DNA from: a virus
Strand: one strand, 5' to 3'
DNA: 64,000 nt
IMG/VR virus record: IMGVR_UViG_3300028553_000005
Span: 62,001 to 126,000 of that record
Shown here: positions 5,159 through 62,796 of the stretch, piece after piece
How the letters are laid out: every line of letters begins with the position of its first letter
Position numbering within the stretch: position 1 is the first letter of the stretch
The notes under the pieces: model-generated
The model's input: the letters and a program-made list of their open reading frames with translations, nothing else
Databases searched by the model: none
Told to the model about the DNA's origin: nothing
Program-made: the position numbers and the translations under genes

Positions 5159-6886
5159 TTATGGAGCAATTGAAGTAATGGCAAGAACACCTCGTCCTGC
5201 ACTTATAAAACTCCACGTGGTGCTTGCTCCCACTTGCACAGGACTGGATCGGTTGGTTTGATTATTTTGTCCTAACTGCCCGTTACTATTGTCACCCCAG
5301 GCCCACATTGTGCCATCTGTCTTGGTGGCCAATCTATTCTGACTACCGGTTGAAGATGCACTTATTAAATTCCAATTTGTTCCTGTTCCCACCTGTGTTG
5401 GGCTGGACCTATTACTGATGTTACCGAGTCCTAACTGTCCAACATTATTGCGACCCCAGGTCCACAAAGTACCGTCAGTCTTGGTGGCCATAGAACCATA
5501 CTCTCCACCACTAACCAGACTCCAATTAGTTGATGTACCAATTTGTGTAGGACTGAGTTTTGTATAAGTTGAAATTTCGTTGAGTCCTAAAGAACCGTAG
5601 TTGTCATTTCTGCCCCATGCCCACAAGGTACCGTCAGTCTTAATAGCTAAACACTGAGAGGTGCTAATACTTATTCTATTCCACGTGGTATTTGCACCCA
5701 CCTGTACGGGGCTGGATCTATCAACTGTATCGCCAAGTCCTAATTTGCCCATGTAGCCTTGGCCCCAAGCCCACAATGTGCCATCAGTTTTGATAGCAAT
5801 AGAAGATGCTGAAGAAGTGTCAATACGGTACCAATCTGTTCCTGCTCCTACTTGTACTGGACTGGATCTGGCAACTGTATTACCAAGTCCTAACTGTCCT
5901 TGTGTGTTAACGCCCCAGGACCACAAGGTGCCGTCAGTCTTGGTGGCCATAATACTGTAGTTACCAACACTAACAAGGTTCCATGTTGTTGCTGTTCCTA
6001 CCTGTGTTGGGCTGGATCTGGCGTAAACTGTATCATTATGACCTAACTGGCCATTAGTATTGTATCCCCAAGTCCATAGAGTACCATCGTTTCTGATAGC
6101 TGCAGAATTGGTTGCACGGCTACTTACTGACTTCCAAGTTGTTCCTGTTCCTACTTGTGTTGGACTAAGCGTGTATCCCCCACTTGTATTTAAACCTCCA
6201 ACACCAAATCCATTCATACCCCAAGAATATAATCTTGTCAGCGGTGTTAGTGTCACAGTTACTTGGAATGTTTTGCTTGAATCTTGTAACTCAGCATCTG
6301 TAGCTACAACACTAAATGTGTATGTGGTTTGAGCACCAATAGAAACTGTACCAGAGAAATATCCGTTGGCAGCTAATGTTGTACCGGTTGGTAATGTAGA
6401 GCCGGCTGCTAAAGAATAAGATGTTGCACTAGTAGCACTAAGGTTAACACCAAAGGCTGTATTGGCTTCTTGATTTGCCAATGGACTTGCAGTGATCCAA
6501 GAAGGTTCAGAGCTGTATGTGATACCAGCAACTTTAATACCAACGCCACCATCAGGATTAACCACATAAAGATTATAAGATGCCGCTGATTTTGTAGGAA
6601 CTTGAACTTGTAGTGTTGTTGAATTTACATATGTAACGGCTGAAGCAGGAGTTGTGTCGATTAATATGGTGGCACCAGATTGAAATTCGGCACCAGTAAC
6701 AACAATGTAACCACCACCTACGTTAACCGCTGTATCATTTAATACTGTAAAGGTATTACTGGCCACGTTGGCATAGAGAACTTTAGGTGCTAGTGTTTTG
6801 GCAAAGGCTGCCGTGGCTGTATTACTTAATTGTACTGTGTCAATTGTGTAACTGGTGATCTGGTTTCCAAGAATCTTTGTGGTCAT
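5159..6886 (-). CDS. RCC1-repeat beta-propeller adhesin A
   Basis: The 575-residue protein has an N-terminal anchor, an IPT/TIG-like Ig domain (about 38-125), a second Ig-like domain of the putative-Ig type with LPTGTTLAANGYFSGTV (about 130-213), then seven repeats of about 52 residues (215-575). Each repeat carries the core TDGTLWxWGxN..GQLG followed by RSSPVQVG. Seven units is the canonical blade number of an RCC1 propeller. It probably displays a receptor-binding propeller on a fibre. It is first after a perfect late promoter box and directly follows the glycan cassette, on the 3' side of it. Confidence 0.82.
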   Translation of the reverse strand: MTTKILGNQITSYTIDTVQLSNTATAAFAKTLAPKVLYANVASNTFTVLNDTAVNVGGGYIVVTGAEFQSGATILIDTTPASAVTYVNSTTLQVQVPTKSAASYNLYVVNPDGGVGIKVAGITYSSEPSWITASPLANQEANTAFGVNLSATSATSYSLAAGSTLPTGTTLAANGYFSGTVSIGAQTTYTFSVVATDAELQDSSKTFQVTVTLTPLTRLYSWGMNGFGVGGLNTSGGYTLSPTQVGTGTTWKSVSSRATNSAAIRNDGTLWTWGYNTNGQLGHNDTVYARSSPTQVGTATTWNLVSVGNYSIMATKTDGTLWSWGVNTQGQLGLGNTVARSSPVQVGAGTDWYRIDTSSASSIAIKTDGTLWAWGQGYMGKLGLGDTVDRSSPVQVGANTTWNRISISTSQCLAIKTDGTLWAWGRNDNYGSLGLNEISTYTKLSPTQIGTSTNWSLVSGGEYGSMATKTDGTLWTWGRNNVGQLGLGNISNRSSPTQVGTGTNWNLISASSTGSQNRLATKTDGTMWAWGDNSNGQLGQNNQTNRSSPVQVGASTTWSFISAGRGVLAITSIAP

Positions 6887-6945: not shown

Positions 6946-7776
6946 TTAGACTCCCATTTGCTTACGAATCTTGGTGGCTGAAATGTCGGTGATTGATTTA
7001 TCAAAGGTTTCTTGTTCGATTTTGTATCCTACATCACGACCATAGGTGATATTGACGATATTAGGTACCACTTGAATCTCGTATTGGCCTTGATAGATTG
7101 GATCCAAATCTCTACGGATATACGATTTAACTTGTTCAATGGCAAACGGATTAGAACCTTGCCATCCTTGGCAATCTCGAATTTGAATGACTACCTGACC
7201 AGTTTTGGCAATGGCTCGGTCAAACAATGCTCGGTGACCTTCATGCCATGGTTGCCAGCGACCCAACATTTGAACTGTTTCTTTCTTCCAGTCAAACACA
7301 GGACGCCTACGATTTTCAATAATGTGATTACCAATAAACTCAGCCCATTTCTCCGCATTTTGTTCTGTAACACGGAAGTCATATACATCTGGTGGTACAA
7401 ACATTTTATTAGTATCTTCATAACGACCAGCTTCAATTGTGTCAACCCAAATTGTCCAATCGGCTTTGAAATTGTTTCTCATCTCTGGAATAGGTGCCAC
7501 GAAATCACAAATAACATAATCACCACCAGCTTCAAATGCAAACTGTGCCATTCTTAATGATTGCCGAATACGTCCTTCTTTAGAGAAATCCCAATCATTG
7601 AATTTTTTACGAACATCATCAGCATTGAACCAAGTTACTTGAGCATTAAATCCTGTGATAGGTAACATTTCACCATAATCGGCTCGTTCACCATGTTTTT
7701 CTAGGTATTTTTTCAATGCTTCAGCCAAAAATGTTTTACCGGCACCAGGTAAACCCATAATTAAAATCTTTTTCAT
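6946..7776 (-). CDS. APS-kinase-like / nucleotidyltransferase fusion enzyme
   Basis: This 276-residue protein has two enzyme domains. Residues 1-150 form a P-loop kinase close to adenylylsulfate kinase (CysC): Walker A GLPGAGKT at 8-15, then NADDVR at 51-56, FSKEGRIRQ at 64-72, and CDFVAPIPEMR at 90-100. Residues 160-276 form an HxGH-type nucleotidyltransferase: GRWQPWHEGH at 172-181 and ISATKIR at 265-271. The second half looks more like cytidylyl/NMN adenylyltransferases than true ATP sulfurylase. It could supply PAPS for the sulfotransferase of the same cassette, or phosphorylate and then nucleotide-activate a sugar or alcohol. It is last in the cassette and overlaps glf by 4 bases. Confidence 0.8.
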   Translation of the reverse strand: MKKILIMGLPGAGKTFLAEALKKYLEKHGERADYGEMLPITGFNAQVTWFNADDVRKKFNDWDFSKEGRIRQSLRMAQFAFEAGGDYVICDFVAPIPEMRNNFKADWTIWVDTIEAGRYEDTNKMFVPPDVYDFRVTEQNAEKWAEFIGNHIIENRRRPVFDWKKETVQMLGRWQPWHEGHRALFDRAIAKTGQVVIQIRDCQGWQGSNPFAIEQVKSYIRRDLDPIYQGQYEIQVVPNIVNITYGRDVGYKIEQETFDKSITDISATKIRKQMGV

Positions 7777-8774
7777 ATTTGTTCCTTAATAAAATTATCA
7801 ACGATTGCCAATGATGAACTGATTGCCATATCCATATCGATATAAACATACAATCCACATCTACCAATAAACTGGACCTTGTCGTTTTTTATGTCCTTAT
7901 ACTTATTATATATTGCTCGATTTAAACCTTCTGAATCTTTTACTGGATAATACCGTTCATAATTATTATCTCGGTAATCACAAGGTTCTTCTAATGTATA
8001 TCTCTCACCAAATCCATGTTCAGGAAACAATTCCCATTTTGTAATGCGTGTATATGGTCCATCATCCGTAAAATTAACTACCGATGTTGGCATATCAAAG
8101 TAAGATTTATCGGTAAAATGAAACTTGATTGACCGATATGGTAATTCACCATGACAGTAATCATAATACTCATCTATTGCCATTGAATTAAAAACAAAAT
8201 CATATTCAGTTTCCATTTCTTTAGAAAACTTGGTGTTTAATTTTATTTTTATATTTGAATGATTTAATATATTTCCAAATAGTTTATTATAACCACCTTT
8301 GGGTAGGCATTGGTATTCATCATTTGGAAAATATAATTCGTTTAAATCATTTCTTAGTTTGATACGATTTAATATACTACTATCAATCTTATCGGTCGGC
8401 AAGCCCCACATCTTTTTAGAATAAGGCACATACAGAGTTTCAAACAATTTATCACCTAATATTTTTTGTGTTTCCAAATTAGGTGGTAAAGTTAGATATT
8501 GGCCTTTGTGATATGCTTTGACTTTATGTTGGTATGGTACCCATTCGGTGTATTGGGACAACCATTCAATTACTCTATTGTTATTTGTGTGTAGGATGTG
8601 CGGTCCGTAGCGGTGTACTAGAACACCATCTATCATCTCATCATAACAGTTGCCACCAATATGGCCTCTTTGGTCAATTATGGTAATATTGTAACCACGA
8701 TTGGCCAGTTCTCTGGTTATAACTGAACCTGAGAATCCTGTTCCAACGACCAGTATGTTTTGTTTTCTTCCCAT
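7773..8774 (-). CDS. glf: UDP-galactopyranose mutase
   Basis: The 333-residue enzyme converts UDP-galactopyranose to UDP-galactofuranose using reduced FAD. Seen are the dinucleotide-binding VGTGFSGSVITRELANRG (residues 10-27), the DQRGHIGGNCYD motif (35-46), YGPHILHTNN, the PYSKKMWGLP segment, and a late RCGLYVYIDMDMAI segment that binds FAD. It is slightly shorter than usual (360-390) but no core motif is missing. It starts within the upstream glycosyltransferase gene (58-bp overlap) and overlaps the next gene by 4 bases. A phage-encoded mutase implies that galactofuranose is used by the neighbouring transferases, which is inference. Confidence 0.93.
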   Translation of the reverse strand: MGRKQNILVVGTGFSGSVITRELANRGYNITIIDQRGHIGGNCYDEMIDGVLVHRYGPHILHTNNNRVIEWLSQYTEWVPYQHKVKAYHKGQYLTLPPNLETQKILGDKLFETLYVPYSKKMWGLPTDKIDSSILNRIKLRNDLNELYFPNDEYQCLPKGGYNKLFGNILNHSNIKIKLNTKFSKEMETEYDFVFNSMAIDEYYDYCHGELPYRSIKFHFTDKSYFDMPTSVVNFTDDGPYTRITKWELFPEHGFGERYTLEEPCDYRDNNYERYYPVKDSEGLNRAIYNKYKDIKNDKVQFIGRCGLYVYIDMDMAISSSLAIVDNFIKEQI

Positions 8775-9550
8775 AATTTAATTACGGCATCTTTCGTTAT
8801 ATAAAACGGTATGTCCATTTTGTTTGACATATGTACCACTAGTGAACCCATTGGCATAAACATTTTAAATTCTGGTTTATTCCACACCGTGGATATCGTG
8901 TTACCTTCCCAATGATGTTCTTTTTCACCAATAATTAATAACTTATCAAAGTGTTCTTTATACTTTTTAAATATCTTGGCTTGAATCATAAATGATTCTT
9001 GTGTAAACCATGTGCTTCTATAATATCTATGCTGTGTAGGAACAACAAAACATGGCCTATAATATGTTTCATTATATGGATGACTTGGATGATAATATAG
9101 TTGATTGAAATCTTGTGGAAAAATACCTATTTCTAAACCAGTAACCGATGAAAGATATGTCCACGATTCAATCATTTCACCAATGGCACCTGAAAAATGT
9201 AGATAGTCATCTTCTACAATGTACACCAAATCATCATCAGGTAAATTGTAGATGTATTCGTAGGCTACTTGAACTGAGTGCCTAGATTTTTTCTTAGGTG
9301 ATAATCCTTCTTGATTTCTTGGTGGTAAAAAATTGATTGTGACGAAATCGTGTGGTTGAATCAGTTCTTTAAGTATGTCCTGAAATTCAGCAACAGAGTT
9401 ATCATCAATAATGTGTAATGATTTTTCTGGTATATTTTTGAGATTGGTGATAATTGAATTTAAACACCGAAGAATACATTCAGATTTATTTACTATTCTA
9501 TCGGACTGTAGAGAAGTTCTATTACAAGTCCTTAATACAACATGAATCAT
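8717..9550 (-). CDS. Glycosyltransferase, GT-A type (GT2-like)
   Basis: This 277-residue protein begins MIHVVLRTCNRTSL, the first strand of a GT-A fold, followed by an IIDDNS motif near residue 48 and the metal-binding YIVEDDYLHFSGA around residues 109-122. The later part has aromatic-rich segments and a HHWEGNTIST block. The acceptor is unknown. It overlaps the methyltransferase by 4 bases upstream and glf by 58 bases downstream, so it sits in one tightly coupled operon. A role in building a galactofuranose-containing glycan is plausible from context only. Confidence 0.72.
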   Translation of the reverse strand: MIHVVLRTCNRTSLQSDRIVNKSECILRCLNSIITNLKNIPEKSLHIIDDNSVAEFQDILKELIQPHDFVTINFLPPRNQEGLSPKKKSRHSVQVAYEYIYNLPDDDLVYIVEDDYLHFSGAIGEMIESWTYLSSVTGLEIGIFPQDFNQLYYHPSHPYNETYYRPCFVVPTQHRYYRSTWFTQESFMIQAKIFKKYKEHFDKLLIIGEKEHHWEGNTISTVWNKPEFKMFMPMGSLVVHMSNKMDIPFYITKDAVIKLWEENKTYWSLEQDSQVQL

Positions 9551-10128
9551 AATTTACGAACAGCAGATTGATAACCACTAGGTAACTCAAAAATTTCTAA
9601 TTTATCCCAATAACATTGCATGAAATTATCTACTGCCATTTTAGGCGAGTTGCATGGGTTGTTATCTTTTCTCCACACCATACTGTCATCAAATAACATT
9701 ACACCACCTTTATTCAACAATTCAAATCCTAAAACACAATCTTGTAATACACCTGGTGCTCGGTGATCTCCATCAACATAGATAAAATCGGCTTTGACAC
9801 CACGATTATATAAGTCAATCAATCCATCAAAAGATTTTTTATTAATAAACTCCACCACACCTTTAGGTTCAAATTCTTCTAAGTTACTTAAAAACATTTC
9901 TTTGGTCTGTGGTATATTTTTTTCAGGCAAGTCATCACTATTGTCGTATGGATCAATTGCGTAATGTTTATAATTTGAATTTTGTTGATGACAAATACCA
10001 GTTATGTTAAATGTGCTGTCACCTTCAAAACATCCTATTTCAATTGATACTTTTGGAAAGCCAATTGAACTTACAATGTGTTGAAAACTTCTAATTGTGT
10101 GGTCGTGGAATCTTACGGTTAATTTCAT
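9547..10128 (-). CDS. Class I SAM-dependent methyltransferase
   Basis: This 193-residue protein shows SAM-binding motif I at VSIEIGCFEGDST (27-39), an acidic second motif at HYAIDPYD, ADFIYVDGDH with the DGDH typical of the Methyltransf_24 type (about 115-123), and GGVMLFDDS. The length suits a single-domain enzyme. Members of this family often modify sugars or glycan ends. It overlaps its neighbours on both sides by 4 bases (ATGA), within the glycan cassette, so a glycan O-methylation role is likely but not proven. Confidence 0.78.
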   Translation of the reverse strand: MKLTVRFHDHTIRSFQHIVSSIGFPKVSIEIGCFEGDSTFNITGICHQQNSNYKHYAIDPYDNSDDLPEKNIPQTKEMFLSNLEEFEPKGVVEFINKKSFDGLIDLYNRGVKADFIYVDGDHRAPGVLQDCVLGFELLNKGGVMLFDDSMVWRKDNNPCNSPKMAVDNFMQCYWDKLEIFELPSGYQSAVRKL

Positions 10129-10841
10129 GTTTCTAATCTATCATTACGAATTGTTGAACGGCCTTCTAGAGGTCTGCCAAGTATGGTTGTTTTAAGATTA
10201 CCATCTTCTTCTCTTTCTTTAACATCATAGGCGTAGATACCCATCTGATAAATTGGAAATATATCGGCTCGAAGAATGATATCTAATGGCGCACAGATAC
10301 CAAATTTAATTACATGAGAAATCATATTTTTTGCCACAGCAGGATCAATGGCATATGCATGAGCCCTACAAATAAAATGATAGTTTGGTCCTTCTGATGC
10401 ATGAGTAGGTGTTGGTAGAACTGGCCAACCACCGTTGACCTGTTCATTATTACCTAGATATGCGATTGAATTAAATACGGCATGCTTGAGATATGGTTGA
10501 ACCATAATCGAATCATGTTCTAAAATAACAATTGGTTGGTCTATCTCAACACACTTAGCCCACAAAGAAATATGGGACAATGCACAAGCCACTTCACCTC
10601 TCGTCAAGTAATGATCTGTGATTTTCATCATTTTCATTACTGAACTATTTTTAGAATGTTCCGGCTCTTTGATGCGCCGAGAATAACCATCATACGCATC
10701 CCAATACTCGTAAGGCATTTTTACTTGATTACAAGATTCGGCACATCGTAAGGCCACATCTTCAGATTTTTTATTATCTTTAACCCGAATGATGTAAGCC
10801 TTATCTACATCCATATTATACGAAAAAAACAAAGAATTCAT
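10125..10841 (-). CDS. Glycosyltransferase family 25-like (LPS-type)
   Basis: The 238-residue protein starts with a DVDKAYIIRVKD strand, has the WDAYDGY segment, and the family-typical TRGEVACALSHISLWAKCVE (80-99) followed by PIVILEHDSIM (103-113). GT25 enzymes transfer galactose or related sugars to LPS or to hydroxylysine of collagen. The usual EDD metal motif reads EHD here, a conserved-position change that may alter activity. It is the third gene of the cassette and overlaps the methyltransferase by 4 bases. Confidence 0.75.
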   Translation of the reverse strand: MNSLFFSYNMDVDKAYIIRVKDNKKSEDVALRCAESCNQVKMPYEYWDAYDGYSRRIKEPEHSKNSSVMKMMKITDHYLTRGEVACALSHISLWAKCVEIDQPIVILEHDSIMVQPYLKHAVFNSIAYLGNNEQVNGGWPVLPTPTHASEGPNYHFICRAHAYAIDPAVAKNMISHVIKFGICAPLDIILRADIFPIYQMGIYAYDVKEREEDGNLKTTILGRPLEGRSTIRNDRLET

Positions 10842-10858
10842 AACAAACTTTCAAAAAA

Positions 10859-11281
10859 TTACATTAGTGCGTCAACATCCTCATGTGTAGCGGCTGCATT
10901 AACTTGAATAACACGAGCATCTCTAGTTGACTTGGCGGCTTCAATTTCAGCTTCAAGTGTGGAGATTTGGTCAGCAAACTCTGGTATATTACGCTTCATT
11001 TGCAATTGGTTTTCTAAACGAATTACTTCAAAATTGGCTTGACCAATTAAAGAACCTTTACGCTCATCAACTGACAACTCACGCTTACCCCAAACAATCT
11101 CAATTGGATTTTTGGTAATATCAAATGTATGTGTTGTAAGAATTTCACGGTTAGGTGTGAGGTCTGGAGTAATCTCTACGGCTGCACTCCAACCGGATTG
11201 ACCTTCTGGTGCTGGTGTATCCCAGCAATCTGTTACCTTACCATTCTGAACTCGAACATTATAACCTGATCTTGTTGGCAT
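10859..11281 (-). CDS. Small conserved phage protein of unknown function
   Basis: The 140-residue product is not recognised as an enzyme. Residues 1-55 are beta-like with VRVQNGKVTDCWDTPAPEGQSGW, and residues 85-130 are charged and Ala/Glu-rich, probably a coiled coil. The layout (short beta head with a helical tail) recalls small fibre-associated or fibre-assembly proteins of phages, but no specific family can be shown. It has a good ribosome site (AGGAGATAG) and lies between the sulfotransferase fusion and the GT25 gene. Confidence 0.6.
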   Translation of the reverse strand: MPTRSGYNVRVQNGKVTDCWDTPAPEGQSGWSAAVEITPDLTPNREILTTHTFDITKNPIEIVWGKRELSVDERKGSLIGQANFEVIRLENQLQMKRNIPEFADQISTLEAEIEAAKSTRDARVIQVNAAATHEDVDALM

Positions 11282-11293
11282 TACTATCTCCTA

Positions 11294-13054
11294 TTACTTT
11301 TTAAAATTTTGTAAATCGACTTTGATCTGATCAAATGGAGCAGACCATTCTCCAAATACTTCTTGGCGATACAGCTTCACCGAATCATACCAGACTGTTG
11401 TGTTTCCTGGTGGAGCCCACAAATAGTAAGGCAATTTAGGTACTACAATCCATGTTGGTATTCCCATGGCACCACAGAGATGTGCAACAGAGGTACATGA
11501 TGTGATAATTAAATCACATGATGCAGCCGCTATTCGTGTTTCTTCCCAATGACCTAGTGGTACTTCTTTTACCCAATATGGTTTGTATTGAGAACCCTCA
11601 TCTCGTTGCAGTGATATAAATTCTGCATCAACATCTTCTAAGGCATCAAATAGTTTTGTTGGTGGGAATATCCGATGTTGTTCATGTTCGAACTGTGGAT
11701 TACCTTGCCACCGTAGACCGATTCTCAAACCTTTATGTGGTTCTACTAATGGTTTATTTATGTATGGTTTTCCTGATATGTCCTTGTATTCGTAACCAAG
11801 AATGGGTATCGTGGACATGGATGGTGCCCAATAATCATGTACAATACCATATACAGCATCACTCTGGCAGACCGCCACGACTCCTTCTATATCACGGAAT
11901 AGTGTCGCCAACGAACCGGAACACGCCACAATCACTTCTCCAGCAATCTTTGCAATATCCCTTGCGTAACGAACTCCGTGTATCTGGTCACCTAATCCAC
12001 CTTCTAGATTTAATAATACGGTACCTTTTGATTTGCCGTCCCACATTGGCATTGGTGATTTTGGTGGTTCATTACCAAACACTCCTTCGTCACGACCACG
12101 GAACAATAGTTTTTCACCTTCTAAAAGTTTACCATGTTGCATGAGATACCAACCACGATTAAAAGCGGCACGATTATTCCATGGTTCTTCTTTCTCTAAT
12201 TTCTGTGCTATCTTCCAACCTTCTTCAAAGTTACCCATTAGACCAGCAGCCAACTGTAAATCAAGGTCGTGAATAGGTTTATTGGCAACTTTTTCTCCTA
12301 ACCAAAATCTTGGTTGTACGAATTCATAATAACGATGCTTCAATACATCTTTAGAATCTTCTTTGTGTTGATAACCTAATTTTGGTTTAACATCATGAAG
12401 GCCTTTTACTTCCCAAATTTCTTCATCTTTTTCTTGTAGATTGGTACCATCAATGGCATTTAAATCATATTCAAAATCTGGTAATTCTAAAAACTCATGA
12501 ACTCGTTTTAATTCTTTTTGTGGATCATTCATCAGATCATCATAGTCAATAATTAAAAAACATTCAGGTGCAAATGAATATCCTTTTTCAAATGTTTGAT
12601 ATGATTCTTTGAGGTGTTTAATCAGGTCATCTTTGAGTAAAAAATGATCCAAATTTTTTGGTTTAGCCACACGAACAAAAGAAGCGGCACAATCTTCTAC
12701 ATTACGAACTGTGGCAATAATTTTAGGTTTATGTCCAAGAACTTTAGACATGGTACGCATGTTCGTATCATCAGCCCAACCTCTAGCTTTATCAAGAATG
12801 ATGGGTTTATCAATGTCATGATATTGAGTTTTACAGATGTTATTTAAAACATGCTGAATCTTTTCTTCTTCCTTTTTCTGATCCGTTTGAGCTCTAGTGG
12901 TCAAACTATCAGCCCATGCTCTTAGAGTACCTACTAGGGTATCTAAAAGATTAGAAGTGGATGTGGCATGAATGCTTGGATTTTGGCTAAGAATAGCAGC
13001 CAATACTGTTGAACCAGAACGTGGAAGTCCTGAAAGAAAATATATGTTTTTCAC
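11294..13054 (-). CDS. Sulfotransferase fused to TPR and GT-B glycosyltransferase
   Basis: The 586-residue protein starts at GTG. Residues 1-230 form a sulfotransferase: PAPS 5'-phosphosulfate loop GLPRSGST at 9-16, 3'-phosphate motif VRNVEDCAASF with Arg117 and Ser125, and the LIIDYDDLMNDP segment. Residues 265-320 are TPR-like helices (NNRAAFNRGWYLMQHGK). Residues 340-586 resemble GT9/heptosyltransferase or SPINDLY-type GT-B enzymes: LLNLEGGLGDQIHGVRYA, GLRIGLRWQGN, SLQRDEG, and CDLIITSCTSVAHLCGAMGIPTW. It probably both adds sugar and sulfate to a polymer or protein. It is the first gene of the cassette, behind a sigma70-like promoter. Confidence 0.82.
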   Translation of the reverse strand: MKNIYFLSGLPRSGSTVLAAILSQNPSIHATSTSNLLDTLVGTLRAWADSLTTRAQTDQKKEEEKIQHVLNNICKTQYHDIDKPIILDKARGWADDTNMRTMSKVLGHKPKIIATVRNVEDCAASFVRVAKPKNLDHFLLKDDLIKHLKESYQTFEKGYSFAPECFLIIDYDDLMNDPQKELKRVHEFLELPDFEYDLNAIDGTNLQEKDEEIWEVKGLHDVKPKLGYQHKEDSKDVLKHRYYEFVQPRFWLGEKVANKPIHDLDLQLAAGLMGNFEEGWKIAQKLEKEEPWNNRAAFNRGWYLMQHGKLLEGEKLLFRGRDEGVFGNEPPKSPMPMWDGKSKGTVLLNLEGGLGDQIHGVRYARDIAKIAGEVIVACSGSLATLFRDIEGVVAVCQSDAVYGIVHDYWAPSMSTIPILGYEYKDISGKPYINKPLVEPHKGLRIGLRWQGNPQFEHEQHRIFPPTKLFDALEDVDAEFISLQRDEGSQYKPYWVKEVPLGHWEETRIAAASCDLIITSCTSVAHLCGAMGIPTWIVVPKLPYYLWAPPGNTTVWYDSVKLYRQEVFGEWSAPFDQIKVDLQNFKK

Positions 13055-13148: not shown

Positions 13149-14957
13149 CTATGATAATTTGGCAAACCCGGCGTAAGGCCCCATACTAACTAAAGTCCAA
13201 TTTGTTGCTGATCCTACTTGTATTGGACTGGATCGGGTAACTTTATCATTTCTTCCTAATTGGCCATAATTATTTTGTCCCCAAGACCACAATGTGCCAT
13301 CTGTTTTGGTGGCCGTAAAACTATACGCACCTCCACTAATTAAACTCCAATTTGTTTCTGTTCCTACTTGTGTTGGACTGGATCTATAAACACCTCGATT
13401 ATTGTGTCCTAATTGGCCAAAATCATTTTTTCCCCATGTCCATAAAGTACCATCAGTTTTAGTAGCTGCTTGTATAGGACCGGGTGCACCGATAACAAAA
13501 TTATTTAAACTCCAATTGGTATTTGCTCCAATTTGTACTGGACTCGACCTACGAACTGTATCATTTCTTCCTAATTGGCCATTGTTATTATATCCCCAAC
13601 TCCATAGTGTGCCATTAGTTTTGGTGGCTATAGTATAATTATCTCCGAGTTTTGCTTGACTCCAAGTTGTATCTGATCCTACTTGTATTGGACTGGATCG
13701 GGTAACTCTATCATTTCTTCCTAATTGGCCTTCTTCGTTAATTCCCCACATCCATAAAGTACCATCAGTTTTGGTGGCCGATACAACTCCCACTCGACCA
13801 ACACCTATTTTACTCCAAGTAGTTCCTGATACTTGAACTGGACTAGATCGGTTAACTCTATCATTGCGGCCATGTTGACCAGAATCATTTTGTCCCCATG
13901 TCCATAAAGTACCATCGGTTTTGATAGCTGCAAAGAAATAGGGGCTGATACTTATCAATGACCAATTGGTATTTGTTCCAATTTGTACAGGACTGGATCT
14001 ATTGACTCGATCATTATGTCCTAATTGACCATTACTATTATTTCCCCATGACCATAGGGTACCATCAGTTTTGGTGGCCAACACAGAATACCTTGCCGTA
14101 CTTATTTGATTCCAATTTGTATCTGTTCCTACTTGTGTTGGACTGGATTTAGAAGAAGAACCAATATTTAATCCATCTTCTCCATTCCCAGAATGAAAAC
14201 CCCACACATATAATCCTGGCGCTGGACCTATCGTTACCGTCAAACTAAATGTACGACTTGCATCTTGATTTTCAACGTCAGTTGCTTTCACATCGAATGT
14301 GTAAGTTGTTTGTGTACCAATTGTTACAATACCAGAAAATAATCCGTTAGCGGCCAATGTAGTACCAGCAGGTAGCGATGTGGTGTTTGCATAAGTTATT
14401 GATGAATCGGAGTTTGCGCTCAGATTAACAGAAAAAGATGTATTGGCATTTTGGTTACTTAATGTTGCACCGGTGCTCCATGCTGGGAATGAACTTGTTG
14501 TCAATCCATTAATTCGAATACCTGTACCTCCATTACTGTTAACGACATATACAGGATATGAAGCCGCTGTGAGTGCTGGAACTTGTGCTCTGAGTGTTGT
14601 TGAATTTACAAAAGATACCGCAGGAGCCGCAGTTGATCCAAATACCACAGTTGAACTATTGGTAAATCCTGATCCAGTAATAACAACATATCCACCAGTA
14701 GTATTGGCTGCCGTATCATCTAAAATATTATAAGATGAATCTGCAATTTGAATTGTAGTAATTAGTGGAGATGCTGAGTTTGCCAGTATGGCTGCATTGG
14801 TATTTGCAGTTGCAAAAGCAGCAGCTGCCACAGCAGTAGCAATAGTTGCAAGAGTGTTTGCATTAGTTGCAGTAGCTAAACCACTTGCAACAGATGAATC
14901 AAGTTTATCTGAAGTAATTGATGATGCGAGGATATTGTTTGCTGTTATTTTTGCCAT
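13149..14957 (-). CDS. RCC1-repeat beta-propeller adhesin B
   Basis: The 602-residue protein has an Ala/Asn-rich N-terminal stalk (1-64), an IPT/TIG-like domain (65-155), a putative-Ig domain with LPAGTTLAANGLFSGIV (157-242), and seven RCC1 repeats (about 247-602). The Ig pair is nearly identical in wording to that of adhesin C at 16520. Repeat 1 starts at LYVWG and the last ends at the C-terminus, which would close the propeller. Two repeats share a 58-bp DNA stretch with a single mismatch. It is last of a run of three RCC1 genes and is followed by the glycan cassette. Confidence 0.82.
   Translation of the reverse strand: MAKITANNILASSITSDKLDSSVASGLATATNANTLATIATAVAAAAFATANTNAAILANSASPLITTIQIADSSYNILDDTAANTTGGYVVITGSGFTNSSTVVFGSTAAPAVSFVNSTTLRAQVPALTAASYPVYVVNSNGGTGIRINGLTTSSFPAWSTGATLSNQNANTSFSVNLSANSDSSITYANTTSLPAGTTLAANGLFSGIVTIGTQTTYTFDVKATDVENQDASRTFSLTVTIGPAPGLYVWGFHSGNGEDGLNIGSSSKSSPTQVGTDTNWNQISTARYSVLATKTDGTLWSWGNNSNGQLGHNDRVNRSSPVQIGTNTNWSLISISPYFFAAIKTDGTLWTWGQNDSGQHGRNDRVNRSSPVQVSGTTWSKIGVGRVGVVSATKTDGTLWMWGINEEGQLGRNDRVTRSSPIQVGSDTTWSQAKLGDNYTIATKTNGTLWSWGYNNNGQLGRNDTVRRSSPVQIGANTNWSLNNFVIGAPGPIQAATKTDGTLWTWGKNDFGQLGHNNRGVYRSSPTQVGTETNWSLISGGAYSFTATKTDGTLWSWGQNNYGQLGRNDKVTRSSPIQVGSATNWTLVSMGPYAGFAKLS
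13208..13265. repeat. 58-bp intragenic repeat, copy 1 (RCC1 blade)
   Basis: It matches 13673-13730 with one mismatch (13243 against 13708). Both copies encode the VTRSSPIQVGS type part of an RCC1 blade. Confidence 0.85.
13673..13730. repeat. 58-bp intragenic repeat, copy 2 (RCC1 blade)
   Basis: Partner of 13208-13265, 465 bp away in the same orientation and reading frame. Recombination between the copies would remove whole blades in frame. Confidence 0.85.
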
Positions 14958-14962
14958 GTAAT

Positions 14963-16513
14963 TTATGCATTTCTTTTTGCGATTGATGAGTAGTGTCCAG
15001 CATATACTTCACTCCAATCTGTTGCTGTTCCAATTTGAACAGGACTGGATCTGTTATTTATATCGTTTTGTCCTAATTGACCATTACCGTTATTTCCCCA
15101 AGACCATAGTGTGCCGTTAGATTTTAATGCCGTTACTCCATGATAATCACACACGGCATTTAACCAAGTTGTTTCTACTCCAACTTGAACTGGACTGGAT
15201 CTCTGAATTGAATCATTTAAACCTAATGATCCATATTCGGTATTATTCCATCCCCAAGTCCATAGTGTGCCATCAGTTTTAATACCTACAGAATTTCTTG
15301 ATGTTGAAATTGTATTCCAAGTACCTGTACCTATTTGTACCGGACTGGACCTATTAATTTTGTTATTTAATCCAAGTTCGCCTAAAGAATTTGATCCCCA
15401 TACCCATAGTGTACCATCTGTTTTAATAGCTGCAGGATAGGCCGTATCACAAGGACTTTCGGAGAATTTTAACCAATTTGTTAACGCACCAATTTGGACC
15501 GGAGAGGACCTATCAATTGTCGAATTGTTGCCAATTGCATATCCTGGACCCCAAGCCCATGCCGTGCCATCGGTTTTAATAGCATAAAGATTGTATGCTG
15601 CAGTTTTAATTTGAGCCCAATTTGTCATTGTGCCAACTTGAGTTGGACTGGACCTATCGGTTATACTATTTAATCCTAAAGCGCCATAATTACCATAACC
15701 CCATGTCCACAATGTACCATCAGTTTTAATGCCTGCAGAAAAATAATAACCAATGCTTATGGAAGACCAATTTCCTGTACCAATTTGAGTTGGACTGGAC
15801 CTATTAATTATATCATTTAATCCTAAGTTACCACGAAAATTTCGACCCATCGCCCACAAAGTTTTTGTTGGTGATTTTCCTTTTAAAAGTAATGTATGTG
15901 CAGCTCCACTAGTAGCGTTTGACCACAAATAAGCTTCACCAATTTGAACAGGACTGGACCTAGCAATTGCATCATTTGTGCCTAATTGTCCAAAAAAATT
16001 TTCTCCCCATCCCCATAGATTAGACAATTGACTACCAGGAAAATCACTTGTTATTAAACCTCTTGGTCGAATTGCAGTACCGCCACTACTATTCACCACA
16101 TATACAGGATAAGTTCCTGATGAGATGGCTGGAATCTGTGCTCTAAGTGTGGATGAATTCACCAATGTGGTTGTTAATGCGGTGTTACTGGATCCAACCA
16201 CAACAATTGCGCCGGATTGAAAATTGGAACCTGTAATTTGTAAGTATGCACCGGTGGTATTGGCTTCGGCAATATTTAGAACATTATAAGATGAATCTGT
16301 AACTGATACTACATTAATTGTTGGAGGCAAAGCGGCAAGCTCTTGAGTTTGTAATGTAACAAATGTATTAACTGCTTGTGCGGCCACATTGGCAGCAATT
16401 GCCAAATCATTAGCAATACCTGCGGCATTAAATGTGTTTGCTACACCAGAATCAAATACAAAAGACTTGATTGAGTTGTTTGCAATATTAATCGCACGGA
16501 CATATTGAGTCAT
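14963..16513 (-). CDS. RCC1-repeat beta-propeller adhesin D (one Ig domain)
   Basis: The 516-residue protein has an N-terminal anchor (1-58), one IPT/TIG-like domain (about 60-155, with LNIAEANTTGAYLQITGSNF), and then seven RCC1 repeats (about 162-516). It lacks the second Ig domain found in its neighbours. The second blade is degenerate (TLWAMG, preceded by LLLKGKSPTK instead of the usual IKTDG), and the fourth has AWAWG. It lies 5 bases from the RCC1 gene downstream and 6 bases from the one upstream, as part of a three-gene tandem array that arose by duplication. Confidence 0.82.
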   Translation of the reverse strand: MTQYVRAINIANNSIKSFVFDSGVANTFNAAGIANDLAIAANVAAQAVNTFVTLQTQELAALPPTINVVSVTDSSYNVLNIAEANTTGAYLQITGSNFQSGAIVVVGSSNTALTTTLVNSSTLRAQIPAISSGTYPVYVVNSSGGTAIRPRGLITSDFPGSQLSNLWGWGENFFGQLGTNDAIARSSPVQIGEAYLWSNATSGAAHTLLLKGKSPTKTLWAMGRNFRGNLGLNDIINRSSPTQIGTGNWSSISIGYYFSAGIKTDGTLWTWGYGNYGALGLNSITDRSSPTQVGTMTNWAQIKTAAYNLYAIKTDGTAWAWGPGYAIGNNSTIDRSSPVQIGALTNWLKFSESPCDTAYPAAIKTDGTLWVWGSNSLGELGLNNKINRSSPVQIGTGTWNTISTSRNSVGIKTDGTLWTWGWNNTEYGSLGLNDSIQRSSPVQVGVETTWLNAVCDYHGVTALKSNGTLWSWGNNGNGQLGQNDINNRSSPVQIGTATDWSEVYAGHYSSIAKRNA

Positions 16514-16519
16514 TTGAAA

Positions 16520-18244
16520 TTAATTTGAGGTAATAGCTATTGTGTGAGAATGTCCACCTACAATTTTACTCCAATTTGTATTTGTTCCTATTTGAACTGG
16601 ACTACTTGATGATATACCTGAATTTAATCCTCGTTTTCCATTACTACCATCTCCCCATGACCAAAGAGTGCCATCAGTTTTAATTGCTATAGCATGTGTT
16701 TGGCCGGTGCTTATTTCACTCCAATTTGTATTTGTTCCTACTTGAACCGGACTGGATCTATAAATTGTATTGTTAATTCCTAATTGACCATAAGCATTCA
16801 TTCCCCATGCCCATAAAGTGCCATCAGTTTTAATTGCAAAACTATGGTTCTGAGCTGCAGCCACTTTACTCCAAGTTGTTCCTGCAACTTGACTTAGATT
16901 AGAAACGTTGGACACGTTATTACGTCCTAGCTGGCCCGTATCATTATTTCCCCATGCGTAAAGAGTATTATCTGTTGATCTAACAGCTAAACAATGAGCA
17001 CCACCAAGAGCTATCGAACTCCATACTGATCCATCTATTAACTGTGGAGTTGTTTGTGTGGTTGTATTAAAGTTTCCTATTTGTCCAGAACCATTATGGC
17101 CCCATGACCAAAGTGTGCCATCAGTTTTTGTGGCCAAACCATTTTTTTCTGAAGCTAATATTAGATTCCATGTAGTACCTGAACCAACTTGAACAGGACT
17201 GGATTTATAACTACCACTACCAATGCCATCACCTAACCGGCCGTCATTGGTAACTCCCCAAGACCACAAGGTGCCATCAGTTTTTGTAGCTAAAGAATGA
17301 AGCGGTCCTACTGCTACTCTGTTCCAATTTGTTCCTGTTCCTACTTGAATTGGACTGGATCTATTAACTGTATTATTTTGTCCTAATTGGCCATAACTAT
17401 TACGACCCCATGACCAAAGTGTGCCATCCGTTTTTGTTGCTAAAGTATGTGTGCTGTCAAAATAATGATTGGCCGCTCCTATATTATTCCATGTAGTACC
17501 TGAACCAACTTGAACAGGACTGGAATAACTTGTTTCACTATTTTGACCTAATTTTCCATAACTACCAGAACCCCATAACCATAATTTTGTTTGTGGTATT
17601 ACTGTGACAGTTAAGCTAAATGTTCTAGAAACATCCTGATTTTCAGCATCGGTGGCTTTCACATCAAATGAATATGTGGTCTGAGCACCAATAGAAACTG
17701 TACCAGAAAAATATCCGTTAGCAGCTAATGTTGTACCAGCTGGTAATGCTGTAGTATTGGAATAAGTTATTGATGAATCGGAGTTTGCACTTAAACTAAC
17801 TGAGAAGGCTACATTTGATGATTGATTACTTAACGATGATCCAGTTGACCATGCTGGAAATGAACTGTATGTTATACCATTTACTTTAATTGCTGTTGCA
17901 CCAGTGACACTATCAACCACATATAAAGGATATGATGCTGCAGCCAAGCCAGGAACTTGAGCTCGTAACTGTTTTGTATTTGCAAATGTGGTACTAGTAG
18001 CATTAGTCGTACCAACAATAACAACAGACTGATTCGTAAAACCCGTTCCGTTAATTACCAAATAACCACCACCTGTATTAGCTGCTGTATCATCTATAAC
18101 ATTATAAGATGAATCGGCAATTTGCACACTACTAATGGCCAAAGAAACAATGTTTGCAACGGCTGCATTGGCTGCTTCGGCTGCCGCTAACTTTGTAGTA
18201 ATTGTATTATCTAAATTTGATGTTGTTATTTGTGTAAACGCCAT
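16520..18244 (-). CDS. RCC1-repeat beta-propeller adhesin C
   Basis: The 574-residue protein has an IPT/TIG-like domain (about 38-130), a putative-Ig domain with LPAGTTLAANGYFSGTV (132-215), and seven RCC1 repeats (about 220-574). The fifth blade departs most from the consensus (RSTDNTLYAWGNN, VSNLSQVAG). A ribosome site (AAGGAT) precedes the ATG. It is the first of the three tandem RCC1 genes and follows the stalk gene at 18254 by 9 bases, which suggests that the stalk protein may carry or link these propellers. Confidence 0.82.
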   Translation of the reverse strand: MAFTQITTSNLDNTITTKLAAAEAANAAVANIVSLAISSVQIADSSYNVIDDTAANTGGGYLVINGTGFTNQSVVIVGTTNATSTTFANTKQLRAQVPGLAAASYPLYVVDSVTGATAIKVNGITYSSFPAWSTGSSLSNQSSNVAFSVSLSANSDSSITYSNTTALPAGTTLAANGYFSGTVSIGAQTTYSFDVKATDAENQDVSRTFSLTVTVIPQTKLWLWGSGSYGKLGQNSETSYSSPVQVGSGTTWNNIGAANHYFDSTHTLATKTDGTLWSWGRNSYGQLGQNNTVNRSSPIQVGTGTNWNRVAVGPLHSLATKTDGTLWSWGVTNDGRLGDGIGSGSYKSSPVQVGSGTTWNLILASEKNGLATKTDGTLWSWGHNGSGQIGNFNTTTQTTPQLIDGSVWSSIALGGAHCLAVRSTDNTLYAWGNNDTGQLGRNNVSNVSNLSQVAGTTWSKVAAAQNHSFAIKTDGTLWAWGMNAYGQLGINNTIYRSSPVQVGTNTNWSEISTGQTHAIAIKTDGTLWSWGDGSNGKRGLNSGISSSSPVQIGTNTNWSKIVGGHSHTIAITSN

Positions 18245-23315: not shown

Positions 23316-24719
23316 TTAACCTAATATAGCCAGGCCAGCATATAGAGTGGATGTGGCTCGCAACCAAGTTGTTCCTGTTCCGACTTGAACGGGACTTGAT
23401 CTACTAGTGGTTGAACCCAATCCTAACGGACTGGTGCCGCCACCTGCATTGCCCAATCCCCAAGACCATAATGTACCATTTGTTTTAGTTGCTAGTGTAA
23501 ATTCATTATTTTTACCACAAAAAACTTCACGCCAAGTTGTATCGGTTCCTATCTGAACAGGACTGGAATAATTATTTGTGTTATTTGTACCTAATTGGCC
23601 TCGATTATTATTTCCCCATGCCCATAGTGTTCCATCGGTTTTGATTGCTAGAGCTCTATCACCACTCATAGAAACGTTTGACCAATTTGTTCCTGTTCCG
23701 ACTTGTGTTGGACTGGACCTATGAGATGTAGTGTTATGACCAAGAGATAGTCCTGGAGCTCCCCAAGTCCACAATGTTCCATCAGTTTTAATTGCTGCAC
23801 TATTTCGAGTTCCAGCGGAAACTTTTGACCAATTTGTTGATGATCCATTTTGCACAGGACTATCTGTTATTACATATGGGCTAGATTCATTTAATCCTAA
23901 AGCACCAGTATTACTTGGATTTCCATTTGTACCCCAAACCCACAAGGTACCATCGTTTTTAACTGCTAATGTGTGAGTATATCCACCGACAACCTCTGCC
24001 CAAGTTGTTAATGATCCTACTTGTGTTGGTACATAGGTAAAATAACCAGGTCCTCCATATCCTATACCTGATTGTCTATATGAATTATCACCCCAAGCCC
24101 ATAATGTGCCGTTGTCTTTGATTGCAAATGAAGTATTGTATCCGGCTGAAACTTTATTCCAATTCGTAGCGCTTCCAATTTGTATAGGACTACCTACTGA
24201 AGTTATACTATTGTTACCCAATTGTCCGTTACCGTTAAATCCCCAAGCCCACAAAGTATAATCAGATTTTTTTGATATAGTATGATTGTGACCAGCAGAA
24301 ATATTCATCCAAGTTGTTAGAGATCCAACTTGAACTGGACTTAAAACACCCCCACCTCCGGTACCTAAAACTCCGTATGTGTTATTACCCCATGTATACA
24401 AATAACCATAGTCTGGTGTTTGAGAGGTATCAGTAATTACAATTGGGCTTGCGGTATTTACTACTGGTGTACCATCTAATGAGCCAGTAAGAATTTGAAT
24501 ACCTAAAGTTTTAGTTCCATCTGTAGCATCATCCGCTGAAATTGTTACATTCCATACAGCACGATTATTTGTAACTGTAATAGAACCCGTATTACCGCCA
24601 ACAATATCCGAATTGGTGGTGTTACCCGTGGTCTTCCAATACAATGTGGTACCATCGGCTGTGTTGGTTGTAGTTACTGTAAATTGTACCGTAGTGTTCG
24701 AGGTTTCATTTAATGGCAT
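23316..24719 (-). CDS. RCC1-repeat beta-propeller adhesin E (different N-domain)
   Basis: The 467-residue protein opens with one beta domain of about 100 residues (TVQFTVTTTNTADGTTLYW, GGNTGSITVTNNRAVWNV, DDATDGTKTLGIQI), which resembles Calx-beta-like repeats and not the IPT/Ig pair of the other four RCC1 proteins. Seven RCC1 repeats follow (about 105-467), starting at YLYTWG and ending in LAILG. It is separated from the other RCC1 genes by fibre genes. Four upstream genes (26158 to 24729) lead into it without gaps. Confidence 0.82.
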   Translation of the reverse strand: MPLNETSNTTVQFTVTTTNTADGTTLYWKTTGNTTNSDIVGGNTGSITVTNNRAVWNVTISADDATDGTKTLGIQILTGSLDGTPVVNTASPIVITDTSQTPDYGYLYTWGNNTYGVLGTGGGGVLSPVQVGSLTTWMNISAGHNHTISKKSDYTLWAWGFNGNGQLGNNSITSVGSPIQIGSATNWNKVSAGYNTSFAIKDNGTLWAWGDNSYRQSGIGYGGPGYFTYVPTQVGSLTTWAEVVGGYTHTLAVKNDGTLWVWGTNGNPSNTGALGLNESSPYVITDSPVQNGSSTNWSKVSAGTRNSAAIKTDGTLWTWGAPGLSLGHNTTSHRSSPTQVGTGTNWSNVSMSGDRALAIKTDGTLWAWGNNNRGQLGTNNTNNYSSPVQIGTDTTWREVFCGKNNEFTLATKTNGTLWSWGLGNAGGGTSPLGLGSTTSRSSPVQVGTGTTWLRATSTLYAGLAILG

Positions 24720-31909: not shown

Positions 31910-32506
31910 TTATACAAACGCTGGACCAGTAGCCCAAACTACTAAACTTTTTCTAATTCCTGAAGTAACTGGTGTTACTCTGTGTGTTTTAAAAGAAGGA
32001 AACATTGCTAAAAATCCTTTCTTTTTATCTACAGTCAATACTTCTCCTTGACTAGACAATATTTCTAAATTACCGCCCTCATATTCACTTGGGTCACTCA
32101 ACTGTAATACCATTGATAACTTTCTTGGTGCATCTTGTCCGTGATCTGCGTGCCACCGATAATGACCACCTTCTTCTTGTTTACCATAATATGTTGTATA
32201 TTGTATAGATTCATTGAATCCAGTAATATTAAATCGATAAAATTGTCCGTTCAACTGCCTTAATATCCAAGATAATTTATTAAATATCCATACATTCTTT
32301 TCACTGGGGTGTATCCAAGATATGTCACTTATTCGCACATCTTTTGGAGAAACCTCACCAGCATCTATCTTAGAATCTTCTTTCTCTAAAGAATCTCCTA
32401 GTTCTATTATCTTAGATATTTCTTCATCAGTAAACCCACCATTCCAAGTTACGAAATCTTGTTCTGTTATGCCAAAATTTGGTGACGGTGCAATCGCATA
32501 TAACAT
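31910..32506 (-). CDS. 2OG-Fe(II) oxygenase, prolyl 4-hydroxylase-like
   Basis: The 198-residue enzyme has all residues of the double-stranded beta-helix oxygenase site: iron ligands His119 and Asp121 (RWHADHG), distal His175 (FKTHRVTPV) and Arg185 ten residues later for 2-oxoglutarate. EYEGGNLEI and GFLAMFPSFKTHRV are hallmarks of the prolyl 4-hydroxylase/PiuC group. It lies 22 bases after the gene for a collagen-like protein in the same direction, whose prolines are mostly in the Y position that collagen prolyl hydroxylases modify. Hydroxylation of that protein is the leading hypothesis. Such oxygenases also occur in other marine phages with unknown targets. Confidence 0.85.
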   Translation of the reverse strand: MLYAIAPSPNFGITEQDFVTWNGGFTDEEISKIIELGDSLEKEDSKIDAGEVSPKDVRISDISWIHPSEKNVWIFNKLSWILRQLNGQFYRFNITGFNESIQYTTYYGKQEEGGHYRWHADHGQDAPRKLSMVLQLSDPSEYEGGNLEILSSQGEVLTVDKKKGFLAMFPSFKTHRVTPVTSGIRKSLVVWATGPAFV

Positions 32507-61096: not shown

Positions 61097-62796
61097 TAAG
61101 CAAATACGAACAAGCAGCGACAACCAGAAAACGAGGAGTCTTAGGTACTATTACCGATAGATTAGTCGCTGGCCAAGGATTTGGTCAATCCATTGGTGGA
61201 GGCGTATCTGAATCATTCAAAGCAAAAACTACAGGTTTAAAAGAAAAATTTGATCCGTTAAACATTGCAAAGATATTAACGGGTAATCTTGGTATGGCTT
61301 TCTTAGGTAAGATAACAGGTAGAAAACCTGAAGATATGCAATACTTCTTCAATAAAAATAGAAAAAAAGGTGAGAAACCTTATTCTTTTACACAACCACA
61401 AGAAACTAAAGTTGGCAATGTAGAAACTGCCTTTTATAGTAAAATTAGAGAAGGTCAAAGAGGTTCATTACAAAAAGGTGATAATGTGGCTACTGTAGCC
61501 GCTCGTTTGGTTAATGTCATGAAAACCTTTTATGAAAAAGAAAATTTAAATCGTGAGTTAGACTATAATTTTGAAGAAGAAGTTCAAGCAGAAGATGCCA
61601 AACGGCATGAAAATTTAATTAATGAAATTAAAAAATTAAAAGATAAAAAACCAGCAAAAACGGATATTGAAAAAGTCAAAAAAGATTTAAAAATTGAAGA
61701 GCCGCCTACAAAAAAACCTGAAGAATCAAAGAAACCAGAAACACCTGCATCCACAGTTACATCACCTACTGTTGCAACCACCTCTGCAGCCGCACCAGTA
61801 GTAACTACTGTTGTTAGTAAAGCCGTTACTAAAGCCAAAGATATTCCAGGTGTGGCCACGGTTGTTAGTAAAGCAGAAAAAATTATACAACCAACAAAGA
61901 CTGTACCAAAAATAACAAAAGAAATAGATAAGCCAGTCGCTGGTGTGGTTGAAGCTGCCAAAGCAACTAAAATTCCAACACCTTCTGTAGGAGGTGCGGC
62001 GGCCATTGGTGGTACTGCCGCAGTGGTCGCTGGTATAGGATCGGCTTTGGCTGAAGTTGGTATAACAAATGAGTATGCACAAAAAGCTATTTTAGGTAAT
62101 GTTGGTAAAGAATCAGGATTTACTGCAAAATATGAAACTGGTTATGCCAATACTTCAAACGATAGAATCCGTAAAATATTTGGCAGTAGAGTTGCAGGTC
62201 TTACAGATGACCAACTAAATGAAATTAAAAAAGATGATTCTAAATTTTTTGAAACAGTTTACGGTTATCAGACTGCCAAAGGTCAAGAGTTAGGTAATAA
62301 AGAACCAGGTGATGGATTTAAATATCGTGGCCGTGGTCTGATTCAATTGACAGGAAAAGATAACTATAACAGAATTGGTAAACAAATTGGTGCCGATTTA
62401 GTTTCCAATCCAGACTTAGTAAATGATTCAGTATTGGCACCAAAAATTGTTGCAGCTTTTGTTAAAAATAAATTAGGTAGTAGAGTAAATTCATTTAAGA
62501 GCCAATCAGAAGCGAATAACGAAATAACTAAAGCAATCGTTGGTGCCAGTGTAGATTTAACAAGAGGGTTTGGTGCTGAACAAATGGCCAAAGTTGAAGC
62601 CTTCACCAGTTCACCTTCTGGTGAGGCTGTATATGCTATGTCGAAACAAAATCAAGAATTAAAAGAACAAGTACCTGTAACAAATATAGCAGTAAACAAT
62701 ACCAAAACAATCATTAATGCTGGTGGTGGTCAATCCAGACAAATTATAAGTACAGCACAGATTGACGATTATCCAGTTTTAGAAACAACAATATAA
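61093..62796 (+). CDS. Tape-measure/hub-type protein with GH19 lysozyme domain
   Basis: The 567-residue protein has an N-terminal region (1-100) with GLKEKFDPLNIAKILTGNLGMAFLGKITG (in parts, about 47-75), a Lys/Glu coil (150-210), a Pro/Thr/Ala/Val-rich linker (210-300), a short Ala/Gly helix, and a GH19 chitinase/lysozyme domain (about 318-500): YAQKAILGNVGKESGF with catalytic Glu340, then YRGRGLIQLTGKDNYNRIG and a DLVNDSVLAPKIVAAF helix. GH19 phage enzymes cut peptidoglycan. It is presumably virion-borne and opens the wall on DNA entry, taking the place of the missing gp5 lysozyme. Its start overlaps the previous stop by 4 bases. Confidence 0.8.
   Translation: MISKYEQAATTRKRGVLGTITDRLVAGQGFGQSIGGGVSESFKAKTTGLKEKFDPLNIAKILTGNLGMAFLGKITGRKPEDMQYFFNKNRKKGEKPYSFTQPQETKVGNVETAFYSKIREGQRGSLQKGDNVATVAARLVNVMKTFYEKENLNRELDYNFEEEVQAEDAKRHENLINEIKKLKDKKPAKTDIEKVKKDLKIEEPPTKKPEESKKPETPASTVTSPTVATTSAAAPVVTTVVSKAVTKAKDIPGVATVVSKAEKIIQPTKTVPKITKEIDKPVAGVVEAAKATKIPTPSVGGAAAIGGTAAVVAGIGSALAEVGITNEYAQKAILGNVGKESGFTAKYETGYANTSNDRIRKIFGSRVAGLTDDQLNEIKKDDSKFFETVYGYQTAKGQELGNKEPGDGFKYRGRGLIQLTGKDNYNRIGKQIGADLVSNPDLVNDSVLAPKIVAAFVKNKLGSRVNSFKSQSEANNEITKAIVGASVDLTRGFGAEQMAKVEAFTSSPSGEAVYAMSKQNQELKEQVPVTNIAVNNTKTIINAGGGQSRQIISTAQIDDYPVLETTI
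61239..61280. repeat. 42-bp perfect direct repeat, copy 1
   Basis: Identical to 63132-63173, in the same orientation and codon frame, encoding the KEKFDPLNIAKILT core of the shared segment of two neighbouring genes. The flanks are diverged. Confidence 0.9.

Follow-up and report, generated by a model that had tools for sequence, protein, structure and literature searches.

A phage-encoded kinase–nucleotidyltransferase fusion paired with sulfotransferases in viral fibre loci and with APS reductase in SAR11: a candidate minimal PAPS synthase

The window analysed here is a stretch of 64,000 nucleotides from the IMG/VR virus record IMGVR_UViG_3300028553_000005 (positions 62,001 to 126,000), which carries in its fibre region a cassette of seven genes (window positions 6946–13054) headed by a sulfotransferase–glycosyltransferase (GT) gene and closed by a fusion of a kinase similar to adenosine 5'-phosphosulfate (APS) kinase with a nucleotidyltransferase (NT), hereafter KINT (kinase-nucleotidyltransferase; 276 aa, 6946..7776, minus strand). 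KINT belongs to a widespread and overlooked family, and its pattern of occurrence is more interesting than the cassette itself. Our tentative proposal, held at a little under even confidence, is that KINT represents a new minimal synthase of 3'-phosphoadenosine 5'-phosphosulfate (PAPS), whose ATP-sulfurylase half would have come from an NMNAT/PPAT-like ancestor. Common to freshwater T4-like phages, SAR11 and SAR86, it would supply the ATP sulfurylase (Sat) step that is missing next to APS reductase in SAR11, and phages could use it to sulfate their own fibres. For the cassette, a somewhat favoured reading is that these fibre-region genes form a phage-borne unit for glycan synthesis and sulfation, with KINT supplying the sulfate donor.

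The kinase half of KINT (residues ~1–156) matched the APS_kinase family (PF01583) with 32.4 bits at a cut-off of 21.1, and the separately encoded kinase of SAR11 matched it with 38.2 bits; here and below, Pfam matches were judged against gathering cut-offs and NCBIfam matches against equivalog cut-offs. Since the score for adenylyl-sulfate kinase (TIGR00455) was far under its equivalog cut-off (22.7 vs. 138.7 bits), the protein is, by its sequence, a divergent relative of APS kinase and not an orthologue. Across 24 KINT sequences, R56 and F64 were invariant and R69 was kept in at least 90%, all three in register with APS-site residues of APS kinase; we take them to be the counterparts of the APS-contacting Arg, Phe and Arg of those enzymes. 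The AlphaFold model (pLDDT 87.5), built on an alignment from which rows of the phage collection were left out, aligned best to APS kinases over the kinase part (Z 15.4–18.0, rmsd 1.7–2.7 Å, 128–142 residues; the Z range sets aside two rows spanning both KINT domains), followed by gluconate kinase as the next family (Z 14.6). APS kinases also ranked first by sequence search among solved structures. The P-loop, DxxR, the APS-site Phe and Arg and the overall fold are common to KINT and CysC (PF01583), but the C-terminal part of the KINT kinase is shortened and has a DTNxxFxxP segment. Predicted fold, residues and genomic context together make it quite probable that this kinase acts on APS.

The second half (residues ~161–276) is a minimal HxGH nucleotidyltransferase, which, modelled alone (pLDDT 89.8), adopts a PPAT/NMNAT-like fold with a Z of about 10. 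It has the HxGH motif, within a nearly invariant GRxQPxHxGH, and the Rossmann-like fold of the superfamily, and it also carries a YGRxVGY segment which is invariant or nearly so, and IxATxIR. The earlier sequence-only reading had called KINT an APS-kinase-like/nucleotidyltransferase fusion. With NadM/PPAT the NT half shares the GRxQPxHxGH motif, an ISxTxIR-type motif and the core fold, whereas it is shorter, has YGRxVGY where the substrate part would be, and falls below every equivalog cut-off, including that for NMN adenylyltransferase (TIGR01527, 24.3 vs. 181.2 bits). A role in NAD salvage (NadR/NadM-like) lacks equivalog support and the context favours APS, by which that candidate is weakened rather than removed. 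The proposed order of the two activities is that of the human-type PAPS synthases (PAPSS1/2), with an N-terminal APS kinase and a C-terminal ATP sulfurylase. KINT resembles them in the APS-kinase fold (Z 16–18 against PAPSS kinase domains) and in having a C-terminal HxGH nucleotidyltransferase; it differs in that this half has ~115 aa and is NMNAT/PPAT-like rather than of the ATP-sulfurylase family, and in the kinase lid.

One link to sulfation came from viral gene neighbourhoods. In scans of the same kind, at least 590 viral stretches encoded a KINT relative and 56 the sulfotransferase-GT protein, and a first guess that KINT, being far commoner, was unrelated to sulfotransferases was overturned by a neutral sample. 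In this sample, records were chosen by a neck protein encoded where the fibre region ends, and 47 were searched whole: KINT was found in six, Sulfotransfer_3 (PF13469) in those very six, and neither in the other 41 (Fisher p 9e-8, relatedness ignored). The sulfotransferase is the fused one in three of the six records and, in the other three, a stand-alone protein of ~265 aa. Starting from KINT, PF13469 was present in 39 of 50 viral records, and a custom sulfotransferase profile found a sulfotransferase in 53 of 80 loci, always on the same strand (53/53), nearly always upstream (52/53) and at a median distance of 3 ORFs; clustering of these paired sulfotransferases gives 7 groups at 35% identity, rising to 10 at 40%. 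Among 77 loci selected by UDP-galactopyranose mutase (UGM), KINT accompanies the sulfotransferase in all eight loci that have one, and 53 loci lack both (p 3.5e-5); these eight all come from the window's own group, though, and KINT homologues without a local sulfotransferase are encoded in ten other UGM-selected records. The sulfotransferase plus APS-kinase-like pair, singled out in the earlier reading, is a real and recurrent linkage in freshwater-type viral records, strong in their fibre loci and not universal. At one KINT locus without a profile match, L125, a Sulfotransfer_3 protein scored just under threshold (26.0 vs. 27 bits). Also encoded close to KINT, at L125:9369-9995, L125:11689-12912 and L103:7320-7955, are P-loop proteins without a Pfam match whose likeness to sulfotransferases was judged by eye. 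No sulfotransferase candidate was seen in the KINT loci L134 and L123, the latter having a TauD-like dioxygenase instead.

KINT relatives with ~40–60% identity were also found in SAR11, SAR86 and a small number of other genomes; in most of them the two domains are separate ORFs, next to each other or overlapping, in the order kinase–NT. Downstream of the pair in the SAR11 loci L143, L144 and L149–L151 come genes for a TenA-like protein, a membrane protein, AprB (PF12139, 4e-33) and an AprA-like flavoprotein of 618 aa. Of 147 Pelagibacterales genomes, 110 have the NT domain and 109 AprB, with both in 100, the NT domain alone in 10, AprB alone in 9 and none of the two in the remaining 28 (odds ratio 31, p 2.6e-14); in 38 SAR11 genomes the two are no more than 5 kb apart. 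Sat was detected in 6 of the 147. Of 40 KINT-bearing cellular genomes, 2 have Sat and 1 has CysD, and PF13469 was present in 36 of them. P. ubique possesses AprBA without sat and cysDN, sulfite detoxification has been proposed as the role of its AprBA, and cysC is listed in the same strains as aprA (PMC5069961). If KINT makes PAPS, it would be a candidate enzyme, present in 110 of 147 genomes, for the SAR11 step reported missing (APS reductase without Sat), and SAR11 and SAR86, both abundant in the ocean, may likewise make PAPS by a new route. The cysC listed for these strains is, in our reading, presumably the kinase half of KINT. At L165:8895-9998, a 367-aa protein with no Pfam match is encoded directly upstream of the kinase–NT pair, and nearly all SAR86 loci have an ORF of similar length in that place.

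Several observations weigh against KINT as a sulfate-activating partner of the sulfotransferases. The NT half falls in no known ATP sulfurylase family, NMNAT/PPAT being the closest; the ATP sulfurylase profile PF01747 did not match the window KINT and gave 13.0 bits at a cut-off of 24.3 for the best relative tested, from L165, and ATP sulfurylases were not among the best 50 fold matches, a result with which some likeness is still compatible. The complete phages DLP6, Suzuki, Clavibacter 33 and AhaSv have KINT and no PF13469, as do several partial marine viral records; a whole-record search of these four phages and of UGM-selected KINT records without a local sulfotransferase gave PF13469 above cut-off in one large record only. 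Conversely, about half of the sulfotransferase-GT loci lack KINT in the examined stretch, where it was present in 22 of 45. In the marine T4-like records L292 (10257-11043) and L334 (13123-14239), kinase and NT are separate ORFs between UvsX and DnaB, and PF13469 was not found in either record. Inside SAR11, KINT and PF13469 are unassociated (65/45/23/14, p 0.85), though association was expected. Moreover, the viral records and many of the cellular ones cover their genomes only in part, and relatedness makes records non-independent. The KINT homologues of the four complete phages (35–39% identity) lie at L138:6998-7729, L137:5995-6732, L139:5995-6732 and L140:5995-6741; in Clavibacter 33 and AhaSv an annotated cysteine dioxygenase is located ~3 kb upstream. 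The T4-like L288:6572-7027 has the kinase alone. A literature search for phage sulfotransferases with APS kinase, or for UGM in phage virion glycosylation, found nothing direct.

In the mechanism that we propose, the HxGH domain of KINT would form APS from ATP and sulfate, acting as a non-orthologous ATP sulfurylase, and the kinase domain would phosphorylate APS to PAPS. From there, the fused sulfotransferase might move the sulfate onto a glycan, or a protein. The acceptor glycan would be built by the GT25, GT9-like, GT-A and UGM enzymes and possibly capped by the methyltransferase, and the modified target would most likely be the adjacent RCC1-repeat fibres. The KINT reactions, the acceptor and the virion destination are all read from sequence and predicted structure. 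That the NT half makes or breaks APS has about an even chance; this would most simply explain why it always accompanies the kinase, why it is linked to APS reductase and why known ATP sulfurylases are rare where it occurs. A galactofuranose glycan, as envisaged in the earlier reading, would be one candidate acceptor. The earlier reading, partly supported overall, had the cassette making an activated sulfate donor; this is its best-supported interpretation, because of the KINT–sulfotransferase linkage in viruses and the tracking of APS reductase in SAR11, with the NT half as APS maker being the inferred part. KINT is a directly testable candidate for a non-orthologous replacement of ATP sulfurylase, and, if it makes PAPS, the phages would bring their own sulfation chemistry into hosts which are perhaps unable to activate sulfate.

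The sulfotransferase-GT protein (586 aa, GTG start; 11294..13054, minus strand) has an N-terminal sulfotransferase (residues ~1–255; PF13469, 3.4e-19, 70.4 bits vs. a cut-off of 27) and a C-terminal half with a weak likeness to TPR and GT9 proteins. Both PAPS motifs were conserved in 65 related sequences: the 5' motif LPRSGST (residues 10–16) and the 3' motif R117...S125, in which neither the R nor the S ever varied. Of the sulfotransferase/TPR/GT-B fusion called earlier, the first part stood; the C-terminal half of the window protein matched no Pfam TPR or GT family, and relatives match TPR and Glyco_transf_9 below cut-off. Domain family and PAPS motifs are shared with Sulfotransfer_3 proteins of marine bacteria and cyanophages (such as S-SKS1 and S-SRM01), from which the window protein differs by its fused half and by its setting in a fibre operon that brings along a candidate donor enzyme.

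All seven cassette ORFs lie on the minus strand with starts and stops exactly as listed in the earlier reading, and their coupling is seen in three 4-nt overlaps (10125/10128, 9547/9550, 7773/7776) and one of 58 nt (8717/8774). Next to the sulfotransferase-GT gene is that of a 140-aa protein (10859..11281, minus strand), called unknown before and again without a significant match in family searches, which is the usual downstream partner (within two ORFs in 35 of 45 loci) and perhaps has a fibre accessory role. The calls of a GT25-like enzyme, a methyltransferase and UGM, like that of the sulfotransferase, were all confirmed by Pfam matches above cut-off. The GT25-family glycosyltransferase (238 aa, 10125..10841, minus strand; PF01755 3.8e-16, 60.0 bits vs. 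24) also matched a GT25 structure (8xc8, E 0.002). The SAM-dependent methyltransferase (193 aa, 9547..10128, minus strand), Methyltransf_24 and rhamnosyl-O-methyltransferase-like (PF13578 1.2e-15, 58.7 bits vs. 26.3), had no match in a PDB search at E 0.1, and a scan with it yielded 9 loci only. UGM (333 aa, 7773..8774, minus strand), shorter than typical, was assigned by the GLF profile (PF03275 2.6e-44, 151.8 bits vs. 26.3), an FAD-binding N-terminus (NAD_binding_8, 64.5 bits) and the UGM structure 3hdq (2.8e-65), while remaining below the NCBIfam equivalog cut-off (270.1 vs. 303.75 bits). The probable GT-A glycosyltransferase (277 aa, 8717..9550, minus strand) held marginally, its Glycos_transf_2 match (PF00535) being barely at cut-off (23.7 vs. 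23.3 bits).

As was noted earlier, the cassette sits between adhesin genes: RCC1-repeat proteins are encoded on both sides, both on the minus strand, one at 5159..6886, fibre-like and a possible modification target, and one upstream at 13149..14957, also fibre-like. In the 45 sulfotransferase-GT loci, an RCC1-like gene is within two ORFs of the sulfotransferase-GT gene in 39 and GT25 follows the latter in 34; from these neighbour counts, the recurrent core is fibre, sulfotransferase-GT, 140-aa protein and GT25, with or without KINT. The UGM, GT-A and methyltransferase genes differ from locus to locus. Because the cassette adjoins fibre genes, the balance tips slightly towards the fibre, not the host surface, as what is modified. 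The alternative that the product alters the host cell surface, causing superinfection exclusion, draws on the fact that enzymes of the GT25, UGM and GT9-like kinds typically belong to surface polysaccharide pathways; it is nevertheless somewhat unlikely, given the fixed place beside RCC1-repeat genes, the conserved pairing of sulfotransferase-GT with the 140-aa protein, and a Pfam search of the seven genes that found no polymerase, flippase or lipid-carrier transferase.

Two other explanations concern KINT itself. Its kinase might make PAPS from APS supplied by others (host CysDN/Sat during phage infection, or AprBA in SAR11), with the NT half catalysing a different adenylyl or cytidylyl transfer. 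AprBA is able to make APS from sulfite and AMP, by established biochemistry (PMC5069961), and the SAR11 kinase could therefore be fed without a sulfurylase; the closeness of the NT half to NMNAT/PPAT fits this as well. We regard it as rather unlikely, since in viruses, SAR11 and SAR86 alike the two halves remain joined or side by side, which suggests consecutive steps, and since 37 of the 40 KINT-bearing cellular genomes are without Sat and CysD. Less probable still is that KINT does not act on APS and serves salvage or activation of another nucleotide conjugate (a CoA-like, NAD-like or CDP-phosphoramidate-type donor), its association with sulfotransferases arising through shared fibre/glycan islands. 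HxGH and P-loop kinase pairs are generally known from CoA and NAD synthesis, as is a Campylobacter APS-kinase homologue using another nucleotide conjugate; some marine phages place KINT between the genes for UvsX and DnaB, which points the same way, and neither KINT half reaches any NCBIfam equivalog cut-off. Against this stand the neck-marker pairing (6/6 vs. 0/41), the co-occurrence with, and proximity to, aprBA in SAR11 and, within the window's own group, the 8/8 sulfotransferase-bearing UGM loci (of 77) with KINT.

Equally improbable is direct sulfation of protein, e.g., fibre tyrosines, with the sugar enzymes serving a separate function: the nearest solved relatives of the sulfotransferase are the protein-tyrosine sulfotransferase TPST2 (E 9e-7) and curacin sulfotransferases, so a protein acceptor is also possible, but the TPST similarity may be generic to the fold and the domain is fused to a GT9-like half and set among glycosyltransferases.

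The source virus record (136,428 bases) is that of a T4-like phage of freshwater type. The tail and baseplate genes have their PHROG matches in T4-like groups, and, judged by eye, the rest of the record holds look-alikes of the T4-like DNA polymerase, UvsX, clamp, major capsid and portal proteins. The named phages nearest to the baseplate protein are cyanophages, at <30% identity. The fibre region has at least five RCC1-repeat paralogues (5159-6886, 13149-14957, 14963-16513, 16520-18244 and 23316-24719) and a 2OG-Fe(II) oxygenase (PF13640; window 31910-32506). Outside the window, the same record carries a second glycan-like cluster of nine ORFs (L348:9668-16406), in which, judged by eye, glycosyltransferases, two SAM-dependent methyltransferases and an NDP-sugar epimerase can be recognized.

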